A stretch of DNA of 35,165 nt, taken from a virus. Position 1 is the first letter of the stretch, and each line of letters starts with the position of its first letter. The stretch is taken from the IMG/VR virus record IMGVR_UViG_3300019867_000003, positions 1 through 35,165 of that record; one strand, written 5' to 3'. Both the position numbers and the translations under genes were made by a program. Below, piece by piece: positions 9,496-34,809 of the stretch. The notes under the pieces are model-generated. The model worked only from the letters and a program-made list of their open reading frames with translations, was not told the origin of the DNA and ran no database searches.

Positions 9496-9525
9496 TTGCA
9501 CGTATAAAAATAATAGTTATATTTG
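9496..9525 (+). promoter_or_regulatory. Promoter, TTGCAC-N16-TATATTTG
   Basis: TTGCAC at 9496-9501 and TATATTTG at 9518-9525 are 16 bases apart, exactly as in the promoters at 19951, 31010 and 33877. It faces the capsid operon. Transcription would start near 9532. Confidence 0.75.
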
Positions 9526-19627: not shown

Positions 19628-19640
19628 GGTCGTTTTTTTT
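19616..19640 (+). terminator. Intrinsic terminator ending the structural/lysis operon
   Basis: AAACGAC (19616-19622), six-base loop TTTAGG, GTCGTTT (19629-19635) and a run of eight T's (19633-19640). The stop codon of the 53-aa gene is in the loop. Confidence 0.88.
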
Positions 19641-19663
19641 ATGCTGTAAACAATAAATATACA

Positions 19664-19733
19664 ATGCTTGTAAAAACACGTTGACGCGTTAAACCTTTCA
19701 CTCGTTGGCGTAAGCCTAAATGTAAACAAGTAT
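19664..19733 (+). repeat. Three-arm foldable structure in region L
   Basis: Outer stem ATGCTTGT (19664-19671) with ACAAGTAT (19726-19733), eight pairs including one wobble. Inside are hairpin AACaCG-TTGA-CGcGTT (19675-19690) and hairpin GGC-GTAA-GCC (19707-19716). Region R holds the same layout with a different outer-stem sequence. Confidence 0.5.
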
Positions 19734-19949
19734 CTAATAATATAACCAAAATATTAAATAATTAAAATATATAATAGAAATACTACACTAACTTACATAA
19801 AACGCGTTTATACCCGTGAGGACTTTACGGCGCACATTGTTTATTGTTTACAATTTGGGAGTTAATAGGCTTAAAGCCTTAAAACTCAACGACTTAACGC
19901 GTAAACAATAACTTTTAGGTAAATTTTTTAAAATTTTATGCGTAAATAA

Positions 19950-19980
19950 TTTGCACAGTTCAAAAATAGTTGTAGATTTG
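19950..19980 (+). promoter_or_regulatory. Early promoter, TTTGCAC-N16-TAGATTTG
   Basis: TTGCAC at 19951-19956 and TAGATTTG at 19973-19980 are 16 bases apart. Expected transcription start is near 19987, 15 bases before the ATG at 20002. The 62 bases from 19920 match 30979-31040 without gaps at 49 positions by hand count. Confidence 0.8.
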
Positions 19981-20001
19981 TCAAAGTTAAAACAATCAGA
20001 T

Positions 20002-20415
20002 ATGCAGACTTTGAACTTAAAAAGAATAATGGAAACAGCCAACCTGAAAGCTCCTTACGTTGGCGCGCATTTATTCCCTGATAACAAGGAGCCAAGGCAA
20101 GCGGTTTACCGAGTAATGAAAGGCGAGGCATTTCTAGACTCTGAGCAGATTGCCAAACTATCAGAATTGCTAAACGTGCCTATAGGCCTGCTATTCGACG
20201 ACGCGTCTTGGTGCATGAGCGTTAAGGCCGAACGCCGAAACGTTATAAACTTTCGCACTTATGATTACTTTGCAGAGCTTAATACCGAGACAATGGAGAC
20301 GACCCTCTCACGTAACGACGTGTTAATGTTTGAAAAGATAATCACCCACGACCGAGGTATCACTTTGACCGACTACCTCGCACAATTAACGGATTTAATA
20401 ATCAAATATAAATAA
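20002..20415 (+). CDS. XRE-like helix-turn-helix regulator, 137 aa
   Basis: First gene of the early operon. ATG at 20002 was chosen because the promoter -7 box ends at 19980; a longer frame from TTG at 19951 would start inside the -33 element. The N-terminal 70 residues fit a Cro/C1-type HTH. LNLKRIMETANL is helix 1, then RQAVYRVMKGEAFLDSEQIA covers the recognition area and LSELLNVPIGLLFDD closes the fold. The C-terminal half (about 75-137) is a separate domain without a known match. It probably binds the repeated elements just upstream, but that is inference. It could be a repressor or an activator. Confidence 0.7.
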   Translation: MQTLNLKRIMETANLKAPYVGAHLFPDNKEPRQAVYRVMKGEAFLDSEQIAKLSELLNVPIGLLFDDASWCMSVKAERRNVINFRTYDYFAELNTETMETTLSRNDVLMFEKIITHDRGITLTDYLAQLTDLIIKYK

Positions 20416-22434: not shown

Positions 22435-23003
22435 TGGCAACAGAAAATAAAAACGTGACTAGGATCACAGTAAGAGCAACATTAAGCTACGTTAACGTAT
22501 TTGAGCCTTATATCGACCCAAAAGGGAAAGATAAACCAAAATACAAATGTTTACTTTTGATAGATAAAGACGACACGGCAAGCGTTAAGAAAATCAAAGC
22601 GGCAATTGCAGCCGTAGAGGCTAAAATGATTACAGAGAAGTATGCGGGTAAAGCCCCAAAAAAGAAAATCTCAAATACTTTCGGCGACGGCGACGAAGAC
22701 AAAGACGGCGAAGAGTACGAAAATCGTTACTACATTAACGTTAGTAAGCATATTAAGCCTGCAATCGTTGATCGTAAACTTAGGCCGATTACAGATACCG
22801 AAGAGGTTTACAGCGGTTGCGTTGCAAACGTATGTATAGAGTTCTACTACTATTGGATGGACGAGTCAAAAGGTATCACAGCGAGTTTGGAGGGGATCCA
22901 AAAAATTAGCGACGGCGAGCCTCTAGGTGCAAGCCGCGTAAGACCCGAAGACGTTTTCAAGGAAATGGAAGAGGACGACGAGGATTACGACGACTTAGAC
23001 TAA
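22434..23003 (+). CDS. DUF2815 single-stranded DNA-binding protein, 189 aa
   Basis: T7 gp2.5-like protein that coats single-stranded DNA during replication. The OB-fold-type N-terminal strands (TRITVRATLSYVNVFEPY, with PKYKCLLLIDKDD) and an acidic C-terminal tail (VFKEMEEDDEDYDDLD, the usual protein-interaction tail) support this. In phages this gene is characteristically next to DUF2800 and the family A DNA polymerase, as here. A gene-free, structured stretch follows before the polymerase. The DUF2815 assignment is by sequence pattern and neighbourhood. Confidence 0.8.
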   Translation: MATENKNVTRITVRATLSYVNVFEPYIDPKGKDKPKYKCLLLIDKDDTASVKKIKAAIAAVEAKMITEKYAGKAPKKKISNTFGDGDEDKDGEEYENRYYINVSKHIKPAIVDRKLRPITDTEEVYSGCVANVCIEFYYYWMDESKGITASLEGIQKISDGEPLGASRVRPEDVFKEMEEDDEDYDDLD

Positions 23004-23391
23004 AAAGGCAGGGGTTGCAGAGATAGCGACTAGCTCACGGGTTCGACTCCCGTAACTCCTCAAAGTTTTTAGACGACGCGCCGTAAGGCTTGACGAGATT
23101 TAAAAACTTATTCCTAAACGTGTAAGAACGCACCGCGTAAAGGCGACCCACTGTTACAGGGTTTAGGTGGCACATACGGGAAAACGGGCACGTTGGAGAT
23201 TCCCACTGAAAAAGTTTTGGTTTAAAACTGTTAATCTTAAACTGCTCCCGCTTGGAGCTTGTAGAGCAAAGAGGTACTTACTAATCCGGGTAAGCTAAGG
23301 TATAAAGTACAGTCCTGTTAATCAGGTGTAGACTGCGGGTATTCTTTAACGCCTCTTTATATTACTACTTTCACACTAAAAAATTAATAAC
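23004..23391 (+). ncRNA. Candidate structured non-coding RNA, 388 bases
   Basis: No plausible protein gene is present. The stretch lies in the dense early operon, where other gaps are below 25 bases. Pairings visible by eye are the tRNA-like part at 23010-23060 (separate entry) and AAGTTTTTA (23063-23071) with TAAAAACTT (23101-23109), enclosing GCC-GTAA-GGC (23080-23089). CCTAAAC (23113-23119) pairs with GTTTAGG (23161-23167), and GCTCC (23244-23248) with GGAGC (23254-23258). AAAGAGG (23268-23274) pairs with CCTCTTT (23352-23358), enclosing CTTAC/GTAAG (23277-23281/23290-23294) and CAGT/ACTG (23310-23313/23332-23335). The 9-mer CTGTTAATC occurs twice. I cannot assign it to a known RNA family. 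Confidence 0.5.
23010..23061 (+). other. tRNA-like element: acceptor-type stem plus perfect T-arm, no anticodon arm
   Basis: T-arm: ACGGG (23037-23041), loop TTCGACT, CCCGT (23049-23053); the loop fits the TTCRANY consensus. It is closed by AGGGGTT (23010-23016) with AACTCCT (23054-23060), seven pairs with one wobble. Between them only 20 bases remain, folding as GAG-a-TAG-cga-CTA-g-CTC (23020-23036). A normal tRNA needs about 41 bases there, and no CCA follows. An alternative five-pair arm GTTGC/GCGAC (23014-23030) has a seven-base loop but lacks U33. Confidence 0.55.
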
Positions 23392-25368
23392 ATGGCTATC
23401 GAATTGCACATTGACGTCGAGACGTTCTCGAGCGTGGATATAATGAACTGCGGCTCCTACAAGTATTTCGAAAGCCCCGACTTTGAAATTTTAATTTTGT
23501 GCTACTGCTACGTAGTTGACGGGGTTAAATGTAAAGTTAATACTATCGATATAGCCAACGGCGAAAAAATACCCGCTATTTTTATTCAAAAACTTCTAGA
23601 TCCTACAGTCGAAAAGCACGCCCACAATGCCAACTTCGAGCGCAACGCCTTTAAGGCTATAGGCTACGACGTACCCGTGGAGCAGTGGCACTGCTCAGCA
23701 GTCAAAGCGGGGTATTGTGGTTTGCCTATGAGCTTGGACGCCGCAACCAAAGCGCTTAATATGGGTGAAGAGGGCAAAAGTGCAGAGGGTAAAGCCTTAA
23801 TACGGTACTTCTCTTGTCTTGTGAAGCCTACCAAGTCCAACGGCGGGCGTATGCGTAATTTACCAAGCCACAACCCCGAAAAGTGGGAAATGTACAAAGA
23901 CTATTGTCGTCAAGACGTTATCGCAGAAATGGGACTACTTGACCGATTGGCAGGCTTTGAAATTCCCGAGACCGAAAGACTCAACTATTTTTTAGATCAA
24001 AAGATAAACGACCGAGGTGTTAACATCGACGTCGAAATGGCACAAAATGCAATACTTATCGACGACCGCTTTAAGCTGGAAGTCGTAGACCAATTAAAAG
24101 AGATAACAGGCCTCACAAATCCGAACAGCGTTGCGCAGCTTAAAAAGTGGTTGAGCTCTACCCTGCAAACAGAAGTAAACAGCCTTGCAAAAGATACCGT
24201 CAAAACACTAATTAAAGAGCACAAGCGCGGCGCTGCGGTTGAGGTCCTAAAACTTAGACAACAAGGCTCGAGCACTTCAACAAAGAAGTACAACGCTATG
24301 ATTAACTACGCGCTTGACGACTACACGGCGCACGGGCTTTTATACTTTTACGGCGGATCTCGGACGGGACGCTGGGCGGGAAGAGCTGTACAGCTGCAAA
24401 ACCTACCCCGTAACAAAATGAAGCTCTTAGACGAGGCGCGTAAAATGGTAAAGGCAGGACACTACGACAGTCTTACAATGACTTTCGATAATATCCCGAG
24501 CGTGCTATCCCAGCTTATCCGTACCGCAATAATTCCAAAAGAAAACAATATCTTAGCCGTTGCGGATTATAGTGCAATAGAGGGGCGCGTTACGGCTTGG
24601 CTTGCGGGCGAGCAATGGAGGCTAGACGTTTTCGCGGGAGACGGTAAGATTTACGAGGCTTCGGCTTCTATGATGTTCGGCGTACCGATTGAAAGCATAG
24701 GCAAAGGCTCGGAGTACCGCGATAAGGGTAAAATCGCAGAGCTCGCCCTCGGCTTCGGCGGATCGGTTGGAGCACTTAAAACGATGGGCGGCGAGGCGAT
24801 GGGGCTAAGCGAGGCAGAAATGAAAAACATTGTCGAGCGTTGGCGTAAAGCCTCCCCCGCAATTGTAAAAATGTGGTATGAGTTTGAGCGGTGCGCTATT
24901 GCAGCACTGAAAAGCCCAAAGCTTATAATTATATCAAAATTAAAATGTATAGCTTTTCAGTACGATAACAAATGTTTAAGTATATTGCTCCCCTCGGGGC
25001 GCCAATTAGTTTACCGCGATCCAGTCTTAAGCCGTAACAAGTGGGACAACGAGAGTATAAAATATAAAGGTAAGCACCAAGTAACGGGTCAATGGGCTTG
25101 GGTTGACACTTACGGCGGGAAGCTCTCAGAGAATATAATCCAAGCCATAGCGCGAGACTTACTCGCCGACGGTATGAGACGCCTAGACGCCGCAGGGTTC
25201 GACATTGTGCTACACGTACACGATGAGGTTTGCGCCGATATACCGAACGAGTCGCCCGAGTTTATCGTCTCGGAAATGTGCCGCATTTTAGGCGAGCCCG
25301 TACCTTGGGCGAAAGGACTAGGCACGCCTGCCGAGGGCTTTATCACTAACTACTATAAAAAAGACTAA
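23392..25368 (+). CDS. polA: Family A DNA polymerase (PolA-like), 658 aa
   Basis: Replicative polymerase with proofreading. The 3'-5' exonuclease domain shows Exo I HIDVET (Asp8, Glu10), Exo II HNANFER (78-84) and Exo III YCRQDV with Asp175. The polymerase part shows GGSRTGRW (321-328), motif A VADYSAIEGR (Asp392), motif B near 443-458 (RDKGKIAELALGFGGS) and motif C HVHDEV with the catalytic Asp611. A 5'-3' exonuclease domain is absent, as in T7 and related phage enzymes. It is preceded by the 388-base structured stretch and followed by a 132-residue gene after four bases. Confidence 0.96.
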   Translation: MAIELHIDVETFSSVDIMNCGSYKYFESPDFEILILCYCYVVDGVKCKVNTIDIANGEKIPAIFIQKLLDPTVEKHAHNANFERNAFKAIGYDVPVEQWHCSAVKAGYCGLPMSLDAATKALNMGEEGKSAEGKALIRYFSCLVKPTKSNGGRMRNLPSHNPEKWEMYKDYCRQDVIAEMGLLDRLAGFEIPETERLNYFLDQKINDRGVNIDVEMAQNAILIDDRFKLEVVDQLKEITGLTNPNSVAQLKKWLSSTLQTEVNSLAKDTVKTLIKEHKRGAAVEVLKLRQQGSSTSTKKYNAMINYALDDYTAHGLLYFYGGSRTGRWAGRAVQLQNLPRNKMKLLDEARKMVKAGHYDSLTMTFDNIPSVLSQLIRTAIIPKENNILAVADYSAIEGRVTAWLAGEQWRLDVFAGDGKIYEASASMMFGVPIESIGKGSEYRDKGKIAELALGFGGSVGALKTMGGEAMGLSEAEMKNIVERWRKASPAIVKMWYEFERCAIAALKSPKLIIISKLKCIAFQYDNKCLSILLPSGRQLVYRDPVLSRNKWDNESIKYKGKHQVTGQWAWVDTYGGKLSENIIQAIARDLLADGMRRLDAAGFDIVLHVHDEVCADIPNESPEFIVSEMCRILGEPVPWAKGLGTPAEGFITNYYKKD

Positions 25369-25773: not shown

Positions 25774-28182
25774 ATGATTTACGACGGAAAACTTAATATC
25801 GCAGTAGGACACTCGGCGCAGTCGGTTAAATGGAAAAACAAAGCTTTTACATGGTCGCAGTTCGTCGACCGTATCGCCGAGAATACCGTAACGCCCGAGA
25901 CCTACAAAGAATTTATTGCAAGCACTAAACCCGAACAGGGTAAAATAAAAGACGTCGGCGGGTACGTCGGAGGGTATCTGAGAAACGGAAAGCGCAGCCC
26001 TAAAAACGTGGTACACCGCCAACTCTTAACGCTGGACATTGACTTCGCGCATTTAGATTTTTGGAGCGACTTTACGCTGCAGTTTGAAAACGCGGCGATT
26101 ATACACGGGACGCACAAACACTGCAAAACCGATCCACGCTACAGGCTTTTAATGCCCTTAGATAGAGAGGTTACCGCCGACGAGTACGTCGCGATTGCGC
26201 GATCCGTTGCTGGACAGTTAGACATAGAGCTTTTCGACCAAACCACGTTCGAGACTAACCGCCTTATGTTTTGGCCCTCAACGCCGAAAGACGTAGATTA
26301 CTATATGGAGACGCAGGACGGCCCTTGGCTATGCGCCGACGAGATACTCGACAGTTACATTGATTGGACAGACACGAGCCTTTGGCCGACCTCGGGGCAG
26401 ATGCTCCGAGAGCTTGGAGCCAACGCCAAAAAGCAGGCAGACCCTAGAGAGAAAAGCGGAATCGTTGGGGCGTTCTGCCGTACCTACTCAATCACCGAAG
26501 CAATCGAGAAATTTTTAATTGAGCAATATATATCCACAGACCATGAAGAGAGATACACTTATACGCAAGGCTCAACGGCGGCGGGACTTATTATTTATGA
26601 GGACACGTTCGCTTATAGCCATCACGGTACTGATCCGTGCAGCGGGAAGACCTCTAACTCTTTCGACCTTGTGCGATTGCACCTCTTTGGGCACTTGGAT
26701 AACGATACTCAAACCCAAGGGCAAAAACCGAAGAGCTTCTCAGCGATGGAAGACTTTGCACGCAAAGACAAAGCGGTTAAGAAGCTTTTAGCCGAAGAGT
26801 CACAGGCTAATATAAAATACGATTTCGCCGAAGTATTAGACGGCGAATACGACGAAGAGCCCGACGCCGTAGAGGGTGACAACGATAACACCGATTGGAT
26901 GGTCGAACTCGAAGCGGACAATAAAGGCAATTATCTTTCGAGCTCGACAAATATATCGCTTATCTTTAAGCACGACGGGCGACTCAAAGAGTCGTTTAAA
27001 CAAAACATTTTCGACAACAAACGTTATGTATTTAGGACTTTGCCGTGGCGCGGGATTAAGAAGCCCGAACCGATTAAGAACGTAGATTACTCGGGTATTA
27101 GGAATTACATCGAAACAATTTACGGAATAACAGGCGTACAAAAGATCGACGACGCGCTCGCCTTAGAGTTTGAAAAACATAGCTTTCACCCCGTTAGAGA
27201 TTACCTCAACGGCTTAAAGTGGGACAAGACCGAAAGGCTCGACTATTTACTTATTGATTATTTTGGAATGGTAGACAACGCCTACACCCGCGAGTCGATA
27301 AGAAAGTGTTTAGTCGGTGCGGTGGCTCGGGTATTTAATCCAGGGGTTAAGTTCGATTTAGTGCTCACCATTATAGGGCCGCAGGGTTGCAACAAATCTA
27401 CGTTTATAGACAAGCTCGGTAAAGATTGGTATAGTGACAGCTTTAGCACGGTACACGGTAAGGAGTCTTTCGAACAACTGCAGGGCGCTTGGATTATCGA
27501 GATAGCGGAAATGTCAGGATTTAGAAAGGCAGACAACGAGGCGATTAAATTATATATTTCGAAAAGGGTCGACACGTTCCGCCCTGCTTATGGCCGAAGC
27601 CCTGAGGACTTCCCAAGGCAAAATATATTTATCGCAACGTCTAACACCCGTAACCTCTTTACGGATCCAACGGGAGGGCGTCGATTCTTGCCGGGGGATG
27701 TCGTGATAGACGACACCCTTAAAAATGTTTGGACTGACCTCGATAAAGAAGTAGATCAAATTTGGGCCGAAGCCTTAACGCTGTACAAAGCGGGCGAGAA
27801 ATTATACTTAAGCCCCGAAGCCGAGACGATCGCACGTTACGAGCAGACAAGCCACAGCGAGACAGACGAACGCCGCGGACTTATCGAGTTTTACCTAGAG
27901 AGAGAGCTCCCAAGCGATTGGAACGCCCGAGGGCTAGACGAGCGCCGTATGTTCTTAAACGACCCCGAGGCGTACAACGAGAAAGGCGTTAAGCGTGACC
28001 GCGTTTGTATGGTTGAGCTTTGGTGCGAGTGCCTCGGCAAGAACAAAGAAGACGCCGACCGCTACAAGACGCGAGACATTAACGATATAATGAAGTCGTT
28101 TCCCGATTGGGAGTACAAGCCAACGACTGCCAACTTTGGGGCGTACGGCAAACAAAAATATTATCAACGTAAAAAACTATAA
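25774..28182 (+). CDS. PrimPol-VapE (virulence-associated E) replicative primase-helicase, 802 aa
   Basis: A fused primase and helicase for the phage fork. The N-terminal BT4734/PrimPol-type domain has LTLDIDFAH (Asp88, Asp90), HGTHKH (111-116) and PRYRLLMPL (121-129). The C-terminal VirE/VapE domain is a superfamily 3-like ATPase. Walker A is GPQGCNKST (535-543), Walker B is IIEIAEM (574-580), and the sensor/arginine-finger part is NIFIATSNT with GGRRFLP (634-640). An acidic linker (about 355-380) joins the domains. It is the only clear replicative helicase here, next to polymerase and single-strand binding protein. Confidence 0.9.
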   Translation: MIYDGKLNIAVGHSAQSVKWKNKAFTWSQFVDRIAENTVTPETYKEFIASTKPEQGKIKDVGGYVGGYLRNGKRSPKNVVHRQLLTLDIDFAHLDFWSDFTLQFENAAIIHGTHKHCKTDPRYRLLMPLDREVTADEYVAIARSVAGQLDIELFDQTTFETNRLMFWPSTPKDVDYYMETQDGPWLCADEILDSYIDWTDTSLWPTSGQMLRELGANAKKQADPREKSGIVGAFCRTYSITEAIEKFLIEQYISTDHEERYTYTQGSTAAGLIIYEDTFAYSHHGTDPCSGKTSNSFDLVRLHLFGHLDNDTQTQGQKPKSFSAMEDFARKDKAVKKLLAEESQANIKYDFAEVLDGEYDEEPDAVEGDNDNTDWMVELEADNKGNYLSSSTNISLIFKHDGRLKESFKQNIFDNKRYVFRTLPWRGIKKPEPIKNVDYSGIRNYIETIYGITGVQKIDDALALEFEKHSFHPVRDYLNGLKWDKTERLDYLLIDYFGMVDNAYTRESIRKCLVGAVARVFNPGVKFDLVLTIIGPQGCNKSTFIDKLGKDWYSDSFSTVHGKESFEQLQGAWIIEIAEMSGFRKADNEAIKLYISKRVDTFRPAYGRSPEDFPRQNIFIATSNTRNLFTDPTGGRRFLPGDVVIDDTLKNVWTDLDKEVDQIWAEALTLYKAGEKLYLSPEAETIARYEQTSHSETDERRGLIEFYLERELPSDWNARGLDERRMFLNDPEAYNEKGVKRDRVCMVELWCECLGKNKEDADRYKTRDINDIMKSFPDWEYKPTTANFGAYGKQKYYQRKKL

Positions 28183-29587: not shown

Positions 29588-30981
29588 CTACCAAACTTAC
29601 TAAAAAAGACTTTTACCCGTACCAGCCAATAGTCGCTCAGCATATCGTCGACAATCCGTTTTGCGGGTTGTTTCTCGATATGGGTATGACTAAGACCGTG
29701 ATCACCTTAACGGCGATTAACGCGTTAGTGCTGGAAGACTTCGCGATCAACTCGGTACTTGTTATAGGTCCGCGTCAAGTTGTTGAGTCTACATGGCCCG
29801 ATGAGGTGGGAAAGTGGGAGCACCTGAGAAACTTAAAGCTCTCGCCGATAATTGGAAACCCGAAGCAACGCCGCGCCGCTATGCGCGTAAAGGCCGACAT
29901 TTATTTAATCTCTTGTGATAACTTCGCTTGGCTAGTCGGAGAGTTTGGCGGCGGGTCGCTGCCTTATGAAATGTGTATAGTCGACGAGTCCTCGAAGTTT
30001 AAAAACCCAAGCGCCGTAAAGTCGAAAGTCTTTAAGTCGATAAAACCCTGTTTTAAAAGAATTGTAATTTTAACGGGTACCCCTGCGCCTAACGGATTAA
30101 TAGATATTTGGTTTCAAATTTGGATGCTCGACCGCGGTAAGCGCTTAGGCGCATACGTCGCGCACTATAAAGATAGATTCTTTAACCACGTATCAAAGCC
30201 AGGCTCTCACTTCGGTAAGTACCTCCCGACCGATACAACCAAAGACCAAATTTACAAACTTATCCAGGACATAGTTATCTCGATGGAAGCGCCCGACTAC
30301 CAAAAGCACAAAGCCCCGAGGTTTATCGACGTGCCCGTGATCCTGCCTGATGCTGTACGTAAGAAGTACGAGCAGTTCGAACGCGAGCGGGTTATGGAGT
30401 TACTAGAGTCAGAGGTTACGGCTATGACCGCGAGCGTTATGTCAGGAAAGCTCTTGCAGTTTGCAGGCGGAGCAGTCTACGACGACGAAAAGAACGTCCA
30501 CGAGATCCACACCGAAACGATCGACGCCCTCGAGGAGTTAGTCGAGCAGGCGAACGGAAAGCCTGTACTTATCGCTTACACCTTTAAGCATGAGCTAGCC
30601 CGAATTATGGAACGCCTTAAACGCTTCGAGCCCGTACACTTTAGAAATGATCAACACTTAAAGGATTGGAACGCGGGCAAAATTAAGGTTATGGTGATGC
30701 ACCCAGCAAGCGGGGGACACGGGCTCAACTTGCAATACGGTGGACACATAGCTATTTGGTTTTCGCTTAATTGGTCCTTAGAATTATATCAGCAGTGGTG
30801 CGCACGTTTACCGCGTCCAGGACAAAAATATCAAGTATTAATCTATAGGCTAATAGTTAAGGGTACAGAGTACGAAAGCGTAGTTAAAACGCTGGATAAA
30901 AAGGACGGCGTACAGCGTGGACTTATGGAGGCAGTACGCGCTAAGATCAAGAAATACGGGCTATCGTTTAAAAAGAGTTAA
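29584..30981 (+). CDS. SNF2-family DNA helicase/translocase, 465 aa
   Basis: A superfamily 2 ATPase. Q-motif region YPYQPIVAQHI is followed by motif I LDMGMTKT (31-38), motif II VDESS (133-137), motif III LTGTPAPN (163-170), motif V GGHGLNL and motif VI QQWCARLPRPGQ with the arginine fingers. Motif I is unusual: the consensus MGxGKT reads MGMTKT, with Thr in place of the last Gly. Motif II reads DESS where DEAH or DESH is common. Such proteins close the DUF2800-polymerase-VapE cassette in many phages. It is the last gene before a new promoter at 31010. Confidence 0.9.
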   Translation: MTTKLTKKDFYPYQPIVAQHIVDNPFCGLFLDMGMTKTVITLTAINALVLEDFAINSVLVIGPRQVVESTWPDEVGKWEHLRNLKLSPIIGNPKQRRAAMRVKADIYLISCDNFAWLVGEFGGGSLPYEMCIVDESSKFKNPSAVKSKVFKSIKPCFKRIVILTGTPAPNGLIDIWFQIWMLDRGKRLGAYVAHYKDRFFNHVSKPGSHFGKYLPTDTTKDQIYKLIQDIVISMEAPDYQKHKAPRFIDVPVILPDAVRKKYEQFERERVMELLESEVTAMTASVMSGKLLQFAGGAVYDDEKNVHEIHTETIDALEELVEQANGKPVLIAYTFKHELARIMERLKRFEPVHFRNDQHLKDWNAGKIKVMVMHPASGGHGLNLQYGGHIAIWFSLNWSLELYQQWCARLPRPGQKYQVLIYRLIVKGTEYESVVKTLDKKDGVQRGLMEAVRAKIKKYGLSFKKS

Positions 30982-31008
30982 ATTTTTTAATATTTTTATG
31001 TTAAATAA

Positions 31009-31039
31009 TTTGCACAATTGAAAATAAGTATTACATTTG
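31009..31039 (+). promoter_or_regulatory. Promoter, TTTGCAC-N16-TACATTTG
   Basis: TTGCAC at 31010-31015 and TACATTTG at 31032-31039. The 62 bases 30979-31040 match 19920-19981 ahead of the regulator gene at 49 positions without gaps, so this is a copy of the early promoter. It drives the small-gene block 31086-33444. Confidence 0.82.
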
Positions 31040-31085
31040 TAATCAGATAGCAGCAACGAGGCGGTTAACTTAAAATGTAAATAAG

Positions 31086-33502: not shown

Positions 33503-33560
33503 ATAACATAATTTGTAAACCTTGTATACTTTTGTTTAACGTATACCTCTTTTAGGATAA

Positions 33561-33590
33561 AATAAACAATAATAAACAATAATAAACAAT
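33561..33590 (+). repeat. Three perfect tandem copies of AATAAACAAT (iteron-like)
   Basis: Perfect 10-base unit at 33561, 33571 and 33581. The 10-base period places copies on nearly the same helix face. The TAAACAAT core recurs in both control regions. Confidence 0.9.
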
Positions 33591-33591
33591 C

Positions 33592-33644
33592 ATTGAATAC
33601 GCGGGAAGCCCCGCCATGATTGGCGTAAGCCTCCTATATTCAAT
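33592..33644 (+). repeat. Three-arm foldable structure in region R
   Basis: Outer stem ATTGAATA (33592-33599) with TATTCAAT (33637-33644), eight pairs. Inside are GCGGG-AAGC-CCCGC (33601-33614) and GGC-GTAA-GCC (33622-33631). The second hairpin is identical in region L; the outer stem and first hairpin differ in sequence there but keep pairing. Confidence 0.6.
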
Positions 33645-33876
33645 ATAAACAATAATACTAATAGAATATAAAATATAATAAATAAGTAAGTAATATAACA
33701 CAACTATACAAGTATACACCCGTAACGCGTTATTTATATATAGCCCCCTAAGAAAACACATCGTTTATCGTTTACGGTTTCGGGACAACGGGGGTAAAGT
33801 CTAGTGTTTATAAGGCTTAACAGCGTAAACAATACTTTTATTGCATAGAATATCCAAAATTTTAACATATAAGGTC

Positions 33877-33906
33877 TTGCACTATTTAAAAAAGTTTGTA
33901 TATTTG
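33877..33906 (+). promoter_or_regulatory. Promoter of the terminase operon, TTGCAC-N16-TATATTTG
   Basis: TTGCAC at 33877-33882 and TATATTTG at 33899-33906. Expected transcription start is about 33913, 18 bases before the ATG at 33931. Confidence 0.8.
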
Positions 33907-33930
33907 CCTCTGAACATTAAAGCGTTATTT

Positions 33931-34278
33931 ATGGAGCCTATACACTTCCAAGCCCAAGAGGTAATCGATTATTTCAAAATAACCCCGTCCGATTTTGTCC
34001 GACTACTCGACCGCGATAGGCTTCCCGCCGAGATAATAGACGGGTGTGTGGTTTTCGAGTTCCACGCGCTTAAAAAATTAAATCTTGAAGAGCCTAAAAA
34101 GTTAATCTATCTGAAAGAGGGGCTCGCTACCGTTGCAGAATCTCTTAGCCGACTCGGTATATCCCGCAGGACGTTCTACCTCCGTGTAGCTTCGGGCGAA
34201 ATAAAACTCCAAAAGCAAGGTAGGAGGTCTTTCGTAAAATTAACTGACCTACTGAGTTTAACGGATGAATTATTTTAG
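33931..34278 (+). CDS. Two-HTH (excisionase/MerR-like) DNA-binding protein, 115 aa
   Basis: ATG at 33931 is preferred because the promoter -7 box ends at 33906; a longer frame from TTG at 33841 would start upstream of the promoter. Two similar winged-helix-type units are seen. About 8-50 reads QAQEVIDYFKITPSDFVRLL and ends FEFHAL. About 70-112 reads VAESLSRLGISRRTFYLRV, then IKLQKQGRRSFVKLTDLL, the classical helix_turn_helix_17/excisionase pattern. It lies directly behind region R and before terS, so it may control late transcription or the replication/packaging switch; that role is inference. Confidence 0.7.
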   Translation: MEPIHFQAQEVIDYFKITPSDFVRLLDRDRLPAEIIDGCVVFEFHALKKLNLEEPKKLIYLKEGLATVAESLSRLGISRRTFYLRVASGEIKLQKQGRRSFVKLTDLLSLTDELF

Positions 34279-34305: not shown

Positions 34306-34809
34306 ATGGCATATACACCCTCACAACGCGAGTTGCTTTTTAAGCGAGTCATAAAAGGCCTGCAAAGCGGTACGTCCTTAAGGCAAGTCCTCAAACTTGA
34401 TGGGATGCCAAGCCGCACCGCTTTGTATGATTGGTTAGATAAAGACGAAAAGTTTCAAGAACGTTTCGCGCGCGCGATGGAAATGGGCGACGAGGTCCTG
34501 GAGGAGCGAAAGCTCGAAATTGCCAGCCTGCGATTGATCGAAACCGTTGAGGAGTCAGGTTATAGCGGCGAAGCGGCTTTCAGTAAAACAACCACGCGCG
34601 ACAACGTGCAGCGCAGCAAGCTTATGATTGAAACGATAAACACAATCCTCGCTCGACGCAATCCTCGAAAGTACGGCAATAAGATTGACGTCACAAGCGA
34701 TGGCAAAGCCTTAGCCGTCCCGGCCATTATCGGTATGACGATCAAAAACGAAACAACCCCAACCAATGACGCAGAGCCGCCAATCGAAGAGGACGACGAC
34801 CTTAATTGA
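34306..34809 (+). CDS. terS: Terminase small subunit, 167 aa
   Basis: Recognises the packaging site and delivers DNA to the large subunit. The N-terminal part carries a homeodomain-like HTH (SLRQVLKLDGMPSRTALYDW, about 24-43), followed by helical oligomerisation segments (ERKLEIASLRLIETVEE), basic ARRNPRKYGNK and an acidic tail (EPPIEEDDDLN). Length is normal. It overlaps the large subunit by 44 bases. The preceding gap of 27 bases has no promoter, so it is co-transcribed with the HTH gene. Confidence 0.87.
   Translation: MAYTPSQRELLFKRVIKGLQSGTSLRQVLKLDGMPSRTALYDWLDKDEKFQERFARAMEMGDEVLEERKLEIASLRLIETVEESGYSGEAAFSKTTTRDNVQRSKLMIETINTILARRNPRKYGNKIDVTSDGKALAVPAIIGMTIKNETTPTNDAEPPIEEDDDLN

Follow-up and report, generated by a model that had tools for sequence, protein, structure and literature searches.

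The 35,165-nucleotide window analysed here (IMGVR_UViG_3300019867_000003, positions 1 to 35,165; WIN in the genome comparisons) comes from a bacterial virus. Its ends share an overlap of about 136 bases with 1 mismatch, and the window is therefore in effect a circle of about 35.0 kb. Two non-coding regions, L and R, split this circle into arcs of about 13.9 and 21.1 kb. In the window and its Bacteroidota-type relatives, the common order is L, a small helix-turn-helix (HTH)-like gene, an exonuclease, a single-stranded DNA (ssDNA)-binding protein, PolA, the VapE primase-helicase, VRR-NUC, an SNF2 helicase, small genes, R, and the terminase. The original prediction, made from the letters of the window, had described L and R as a paralogous pair of control regions, one at either module junction and each with a regulator of its own, that could serve an early/late switch or a two-site replication origin. 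Our results indicate that the pair is genuine, and that L and R are probably two dispersed iteron origins recognised by VapE. The features of the two regions and of VapE are the following.

19628-20001, + strand: region L, a non-coding iteron array with a promoter, lying upstream of the early/replication operon and conserved in 16 relatives
19646-19654, + strand: L iteron GTAAACAAT
19705-19717, + strand: TTGGCGTAAGCCT, a small inverted repeat (GGC-GTAA-GCC) common to L and R; GGCGTAAGC is also found in L and R of several relatives
19722-19730, + strand: L iteron GTAAACAAG, at the left edge of the AT core
19723-19802, no strand: L AT-rich core, putative DNA unwinding element, second least stable 80-mer of the window
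19836-19851, - strand: two overlapping L iterons (19836-19844 and 19843-19851), the GTTTATTGTTTAC of the original prediction
19867-19880, no strand: palindrome AGGCTTAAAGCCTT, identical in two relatives
19901-19909, + strand: L iteron GTAAACAAT
19951-19980, + strand: L-operon promoter of Bacteroidota type, TTGCAC-N16-TAGATTTG
25774-28182, + strand: VapE-type primase-helicase gene, proposed initiator, with neither gap nor array past its stop in the window
27877-28179, + strand: C-terminal winged-helix domain of VapE (predicted structure), proposed iteron reader
33503-33930, + strand: region R, a non-coding iteron array with a promoter, lying upstream of the gene for the terminase small subunit
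33562-33590, + strand: three R iterons ATAAACAAT at 10-bp spacing (33562, 33572, 33582)
33620-33632, + strand: TTGGCGTAAGCCT of R
33637-33716, no strand: R AT-rich core, putative DNA unwinding element, least stable 80-mer of the window
33645-33653, + strand: R iteron ATAAACAAT, at the left edge of the AT core
33760-33775, - strand: two overlapping R iterons (ATAAACGAT, GTAAACGAT), at 33767 and, weaker, at 33760
33825-33833, + strand: R iteron GTAAACAAT
33877-33906, + strand: R promoter-like element, TTGCAC-N16-TATATTTG

L and R are homologous over their full length. Their local alignment scored 662, while 1000 pairs of dinucleotide-preserving shuffles scored 368±24 with a maximum of 460. The likeness is therefore not an AT-rich artefact, and chance resemblance was ruled out. 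The shared elements were present in both regions where the original prediction had placed them and in identical order, namely TTGGCGTAAGCCT (19705 in L, 33620 in R), GTTTATYGTTTAC (19839, 33763), AGGCTTAA (19867, 33813), GCGTAAACAATA (19899, 33823), and TTGCAC-N16-TAnATTTG (19951, 33877). The spacings were also correct, with 60 bases in both regions followed by 52 in L and 54 in R. As markers of the pair, these elements differed in value: TTGGCGTAAGCCT, GTTTATYGTTTAC, and GCGTAAACAATA are unique to L and R within the window, whereas AGGCTTAA has four further copies outside them and TTGCAC-N16-TAnATTTG also occurs elsewhere. The latter was rejected as a signal of paralogy, being an ordinary Bacteroidota-type promoter with four copies in the window. 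Phage records contained no near-identical DNA, and neither an Rfam scan of the window nor a search of viral contigs for the DNA pattern of the L hairpin and iteron gave a match.

A single 9-bp repeat, GTAAACAAT, underlies GTTTATYGTTTAC and GCGTAAACAATA, which are copies of it in both orientations; this had been overlooked at first reading. Both regions are arrays of this repeat (RTAAACAAT), oppositely oriented on the two sides of an AT-rich core, and all 10 RTAAACAAK sites of the window fall inside L and R, which total 2.5% of its DNA. In each region the core lies between the left (+) and the central (-) iterons. The two cores are the two least stable 80-mers in the window and in genomes G001, G004, G008, G013, G014, and G052; six further genomes were examined, and there the cores rank lower in instability or one region lies outside the twelve least stable. 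In iteron-richer arrays the layout is approximately >>> < >> [core] <<, with same-strand spacings of mostly 9, 10, or 7 bp.

The pairing extends to relatives. All 17 Bacteroidota-type phages with both places readable, counting the window, had L/R pairs, with within-genome alignment z values of 4.7 to 18.7 (9.4 in G023 and 13.8 in G024), and across this set L precedes the small HTH-like gene and R precedes the terminase. Among the paired genomes are the cultured phage P2559Y of Croceibacter (C. atlanticus HTCC2559), with L at 23621-23951 and R at 42739-43153/1-239, as well as TCUEAP1 from Elizabethkingia and BF486P2 from Bacteroides. Conservation is strong for L in L004 and L005 and for R in six relatives, so the shared order passed the check in relatives by which the original prediction was to be judged. 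The repeat word varies by genome and agrees between L and R within a genome: it is GTAAACAAT in most, TAAACAG in G014, GAAACAAT in G017, TAAACCAT in G036 and G040, and TGTCTCAA in TCUEAP1. True L/R pairs had a shared-repeat score of 269, whereas permuted pairs averaged 84 (p 5e-5), in a permutation test that takes no account of relatedness. Iteron types were also clustered on the VapE tree, with 5 changes against 9.6 for shuffled labels (0 of 200 shuffles as low). Furthermore, the L and R cores of one genome are identical over at least 60 bp in G018, 47 bp in P2559Y, and 44 bp in G017, compared with 16-22 bp to the R of any other genome. The pairing is thus real, conserved, and co-evolving, and the matched words and identical cores suggest that one factor reads both regions and that the sites evolve together.

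VapE is the proposed reader. Its predicted structure (mean pLDDT 86) best matched PriRep1 of a Staphylococcus aureus pathogenicity island (SaPI) in complex with double-stranded DNA (7pds; E 1e-36, 32% identity, TMt 0.79-0.84). The last 101 residues (702-802) form a predicted winged helix, whose sole significant match was the C-terminus of 7pds (E 1e-5). The iteron core GTAAACA is also the motif of the eukaryotic forkhead proteins, likewise read by a winged helix, and Foldseek matched FoxH1 to the VapE C-terminus at E 0.4-1.2; this likeness is most likely a coincidence.

In more distant phages the array lies beside the vapE gene itself. With an 8-mer repeated at least four times as the criterion, an array directly followed vapE at 20 of the 29 loci whose VapE is less than 50% identical to that of the window, and at none of the 62 loci with at least 50% identity. 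In the distant phages it occupies a gap of about 250-350 bp immediately 3' of vapE, as in Listeria LWP01 and Clostridioides phiCDKH02 (TGTCAACAA), Enterococcus phiFL4A, and Staphylococcus 2638A and IPLA35. These five phages share with the window the replication gene set and the iteron layout, and the phiCDKH02 word TGTCAACAAT is one base from TGTAAACAAT; unlike the window, they carry the main array right after vapE, and no L/R junction pair was seen in them. In L120 and L122, the array after vapE has the same word and layout as in the window, with paired 9-bp-spaced iterons on each side of an AT core; no relative of the HTH gene that follows L was found in the records of these phages, which include fragments. 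In L049 (Dulem virus 37), arrays of the iteron ACAACCGA were observed at 2705-2963 and 22453-22787, one after vapE and the other distant from it, and this is perhaps another two-origin VapE phage outside the Bacteroidota-type clade.

The anatomy of L and R resembles that of several known systems. In phage-inducible chromosomal islands (PICIs), the origin is found 3' of the initiator gene, and its AT-rich region is "always" flanked by two sets of iterons; for EcCICFT073, pri-ori has been assayed on a conditional-replication plasmid (PMC6092414). SaPI Rep and Cch2 of the staphylococcal cassette chromosome mec (SCCmec) bind iterons through a C-terminal domain (PMC7581432). The window is similar in that its candidate initiator is a primase-helicase with a predicted C-terminal DNA-binding domain, and the predicted VapE fold agrees with a self-loading helicase of the (Pri-)Rep kind. 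It differs in being a complete phage rather than a satellite, and in having two copies, 13.9 kb apart, neither of them next to the initiator gene. The gene after vapE in the window follows it without a gap, and at the 62 closer loci no array follows vapE. Because L and R lack the strictest PICI feature, a position directly after the initiator gene, the L/R arrangement would work like a PICI origin rather than being one. Cch2 of SCCmec is likewise a helicase that binds iterons beside its gene through a C-terminal domain, with an A-family polymerase as partner (PMC7581432, PMC10061031), but its putative origin is a single array of few iterons and the helicase is of a different subfamily.

For the doubling of the array, the closest parallel is Bacillus phage SPP1, whose oriL and oriR are alike and both bound by gp38. 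About 13 kb of the circle separates the two, one being found at the replication genes and the other in the late region, and gp38 on oriR is believed to arrest the fork and set off the formation of concatemers (PMC6316719, PMC3485210). L and R likewise appear as two similarly built origins with direct repeats and an AT-rich unwinding element, although the SPP1 origins have been studied experimentally and L and R are known from their sequence anatomy. The proteins are also different, with a VapE primase-helicase here and, in SPP1, the initiator gp38, the loader gp39, and the DnaB-type helicase gp40. No DnaB-type helicase was found among the large replication genes of the window (PolA, VapE, SNF2 helicase, exonuclease, and ssDNA-binding families), the small open reading frames having been partly scanned. 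The layout is thus analogous, not homologous, to oriL/oriR.

Taken together, L and R are probably two dispersed origins of the SaPI/PICI type, recognised by VapE and analogous to SPP1 oriL/oriR. This reading draws on the anatomy of the regions, their homology, their pairing across relatives, the match of iterons within genomes, the arrays after vapE in other phages, and the predicted VapE fold. The C-terminal winged helix of VapE would read the oppositely oriented 9-bp iterons, and VapE would assemble as ring helicases on both flanks of the core and melt it. PolA and the ssDNA-binding protein would then join and theta replication would start. If either origin fires and the two divide the labour, R, lying just before the terminase, may act as a second or late origin or as a fork barrier, as is believed of SPP1 oriR. 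Of the two functions first proposed for the pair, the two-site origin fits the comparative evidence, and the version in which each region has its own regulator is not supported. It is further possible, though we advance it only tentatively, that a large clade of Bacteroidota phages duplicated a satellite-type iteron origin and moved the copies off the initiator gene to both module junctions, with concerted evolution of the word; the early-side copy would start theta replication and the terminase-side copy would serve as a late origin or programmed fork barrier yielding packageable concatemers, so that the SPP1 design would have been reproduced independently with unrelated proteins. No description of a two-origin VapE phage was found in the searchable open-access literature, although one could still exist. 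If L and R are such origins, the origins and the initiator of a widespread phage replication module can be predicted, a natural series of changes in initiator/iteron specificity becomes available, and there is a second, unrelated two-origin phage for testing the idea of a replication-mode switch. The putative origin type occurs in whole phages of several host groups; as a matched pair it is seen in Bacteroidota phages, among them cultured phages of Croceibacter and Bacteroides fragilis.

Several results weigh against this interpretation. Iteron distance correlated with VapE distance at 0.73-0.75, and it did so equally with the polymerase (0.77) and VRR-NUC (0.74); iteron type tracks the exonuclease as well, and VapE is not singled out by correlation. 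The HTH gene after L accompanies L in the Bacteroidota-type clade. The word permutation, as said, ignores kinship among the genomes. In the window itself the R iterons are mostly of the weaker ATAAACAAT form, and L has only about 5 sites. GC skew, which the original prediction had named as a way to map the replication start, gave no support: in nine genomes neither L nor R showed a flip of the origin type. The segment from L to R was more G-skewed in all nine, which gene content may explain.

It is rather unlikely that R is the sole working origin and L a reduced copy, used as an operator or handcuffing site through which the initiator limits its own operon and copy number. R iterons do usually outnumber those of L (7 vs 5 in G001, 9 vs 4 in G013, 9 vs 1 in G004, and 10 vs 1 in P2559Y), and L lies about 50 bp upstream of the promoter of the replication operon. 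However, L retains a full AT core of very low stability with iterons on both sides, it shares the long identical runs with R in G017, G018, and P2559Y (44 to at least 60 bp), and in the window the canonical iterons are more numerous in L than in R. Still less probable is a pair of operators through which the HTH protein encoded after L would switch early (L) and late (R) transcription. The gene follows L in the Bacteroidota-type relatives with readable L, its product is weakly similar to phage repressors, and promoters lie downstream of both arrays. But arrays of this kind, in some cases with the identical word, follow vapE in phages with no detectable L HTH gene, and the distance of the L HTH protein correlated poorly with iteron change (r 0.20, 18 genomes). 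The iterons are moreover non-palindromic, surround an AT core, and in L stand at least about 41 bp upstream of the -33 element. This is not the arrangement of C1/Cro-type palindromic operators overlapping promoters, since the repeats are asymmetric 9-mers spaced by 7, 9, or 10 bp upstream of the L promoter element. With a promoter about 50 bp downstream of each array, early/late switching may nevertheless apply as a side effect of the putative origins.

The location of R just before the terminase could also point to a recombination or packaging signal, pac-like at R. This is very improbable, as the same element occurs at L, far from the terminase, and after vapE in other phages, and an iteron-flanked AT core is no known pac layout. 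We give hardly any credence to the view with which the original prediction began, that each region is the operator of its own downstream HTH protein. The window does have an HTH_17 gene after R and an HTH-like gene after L, yet the two regions share one word and the downstream proteins belong to different families. The claim that a regulator gene follows each region holds for L in the Bacteroidota-type relatives; for R it holds in the window and one relative only (L026), the sole genome with a relative of the R HTH gene. R is kept without this gene in five relatives (L015, L016, L018, L020, and L023), and L025 has a different HTH gene at the R place and no iterons. R is thus not just an operator serving the regulator encoded after it, and with the R HTH gene missing in most relatives, its product was rejected as the reader of L and R. 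The two genomes with HTH_17 after R (the window, 33503-34278, and G008, also listed as L026, 4140-4970) have weak R arrays, mostly of ATAAACAAT instead of GTAAACAAT; it looks as if the arrival of HTH_17 were linked with decay or retuning of R.

The genes next to L and R and the further promoters of the window are given below.

20002-20415, + strand: small HTH-like regulator gene after L, also in Bacteroidota-type relatives, with weak HTH/repressor family matches at best
33931-34278, + strand: HTH_17 protein gene after R, absent from the five R-keeping relatives
34306-34809, + strand: terminase small subunit gene, conserved neighbour of R
9496-9525, + strand: further TTGCAC-N16-TAnATTTG promoter, without iterons
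31010-31039, + strand: further promoter of the same type, within a segment (30976-31040) that has 82% identity to part of L

The Bacteroidota primary-sigma promoter has the consensus TAnnTTTG at -7 and TTTG at -33 (PMC7366714). L agrees with both (TTTGCAC...TAGATTTG), while R reads CTTGCAC...TATATTTG and is one base off at -33. The copy of the L promoter segment at 30976-31040 lies downstream of the SNF2 helicase gene, and a promoter-like site is present there in relatives too.

Two minor observations were made outside L and R. In L016, a PolA fragment occurs in both orientations at 175-1608, which is probably a contig assembly artefact. In the window, the non-coding DNA between the ssDNA-binding and PolA genes (23003-23392) contains a tRNA-like T-arm sequence (GGGTTCGACTCCCGT) and matched tmRNA weakly, at a sub-threshold 12.7 bits. 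G008, G004, and G015 have similar DNA in this position, where P2559Y carries a sequence resembling a tRNA. This stretch is possibly an odd tRNA-associated structured RNA.
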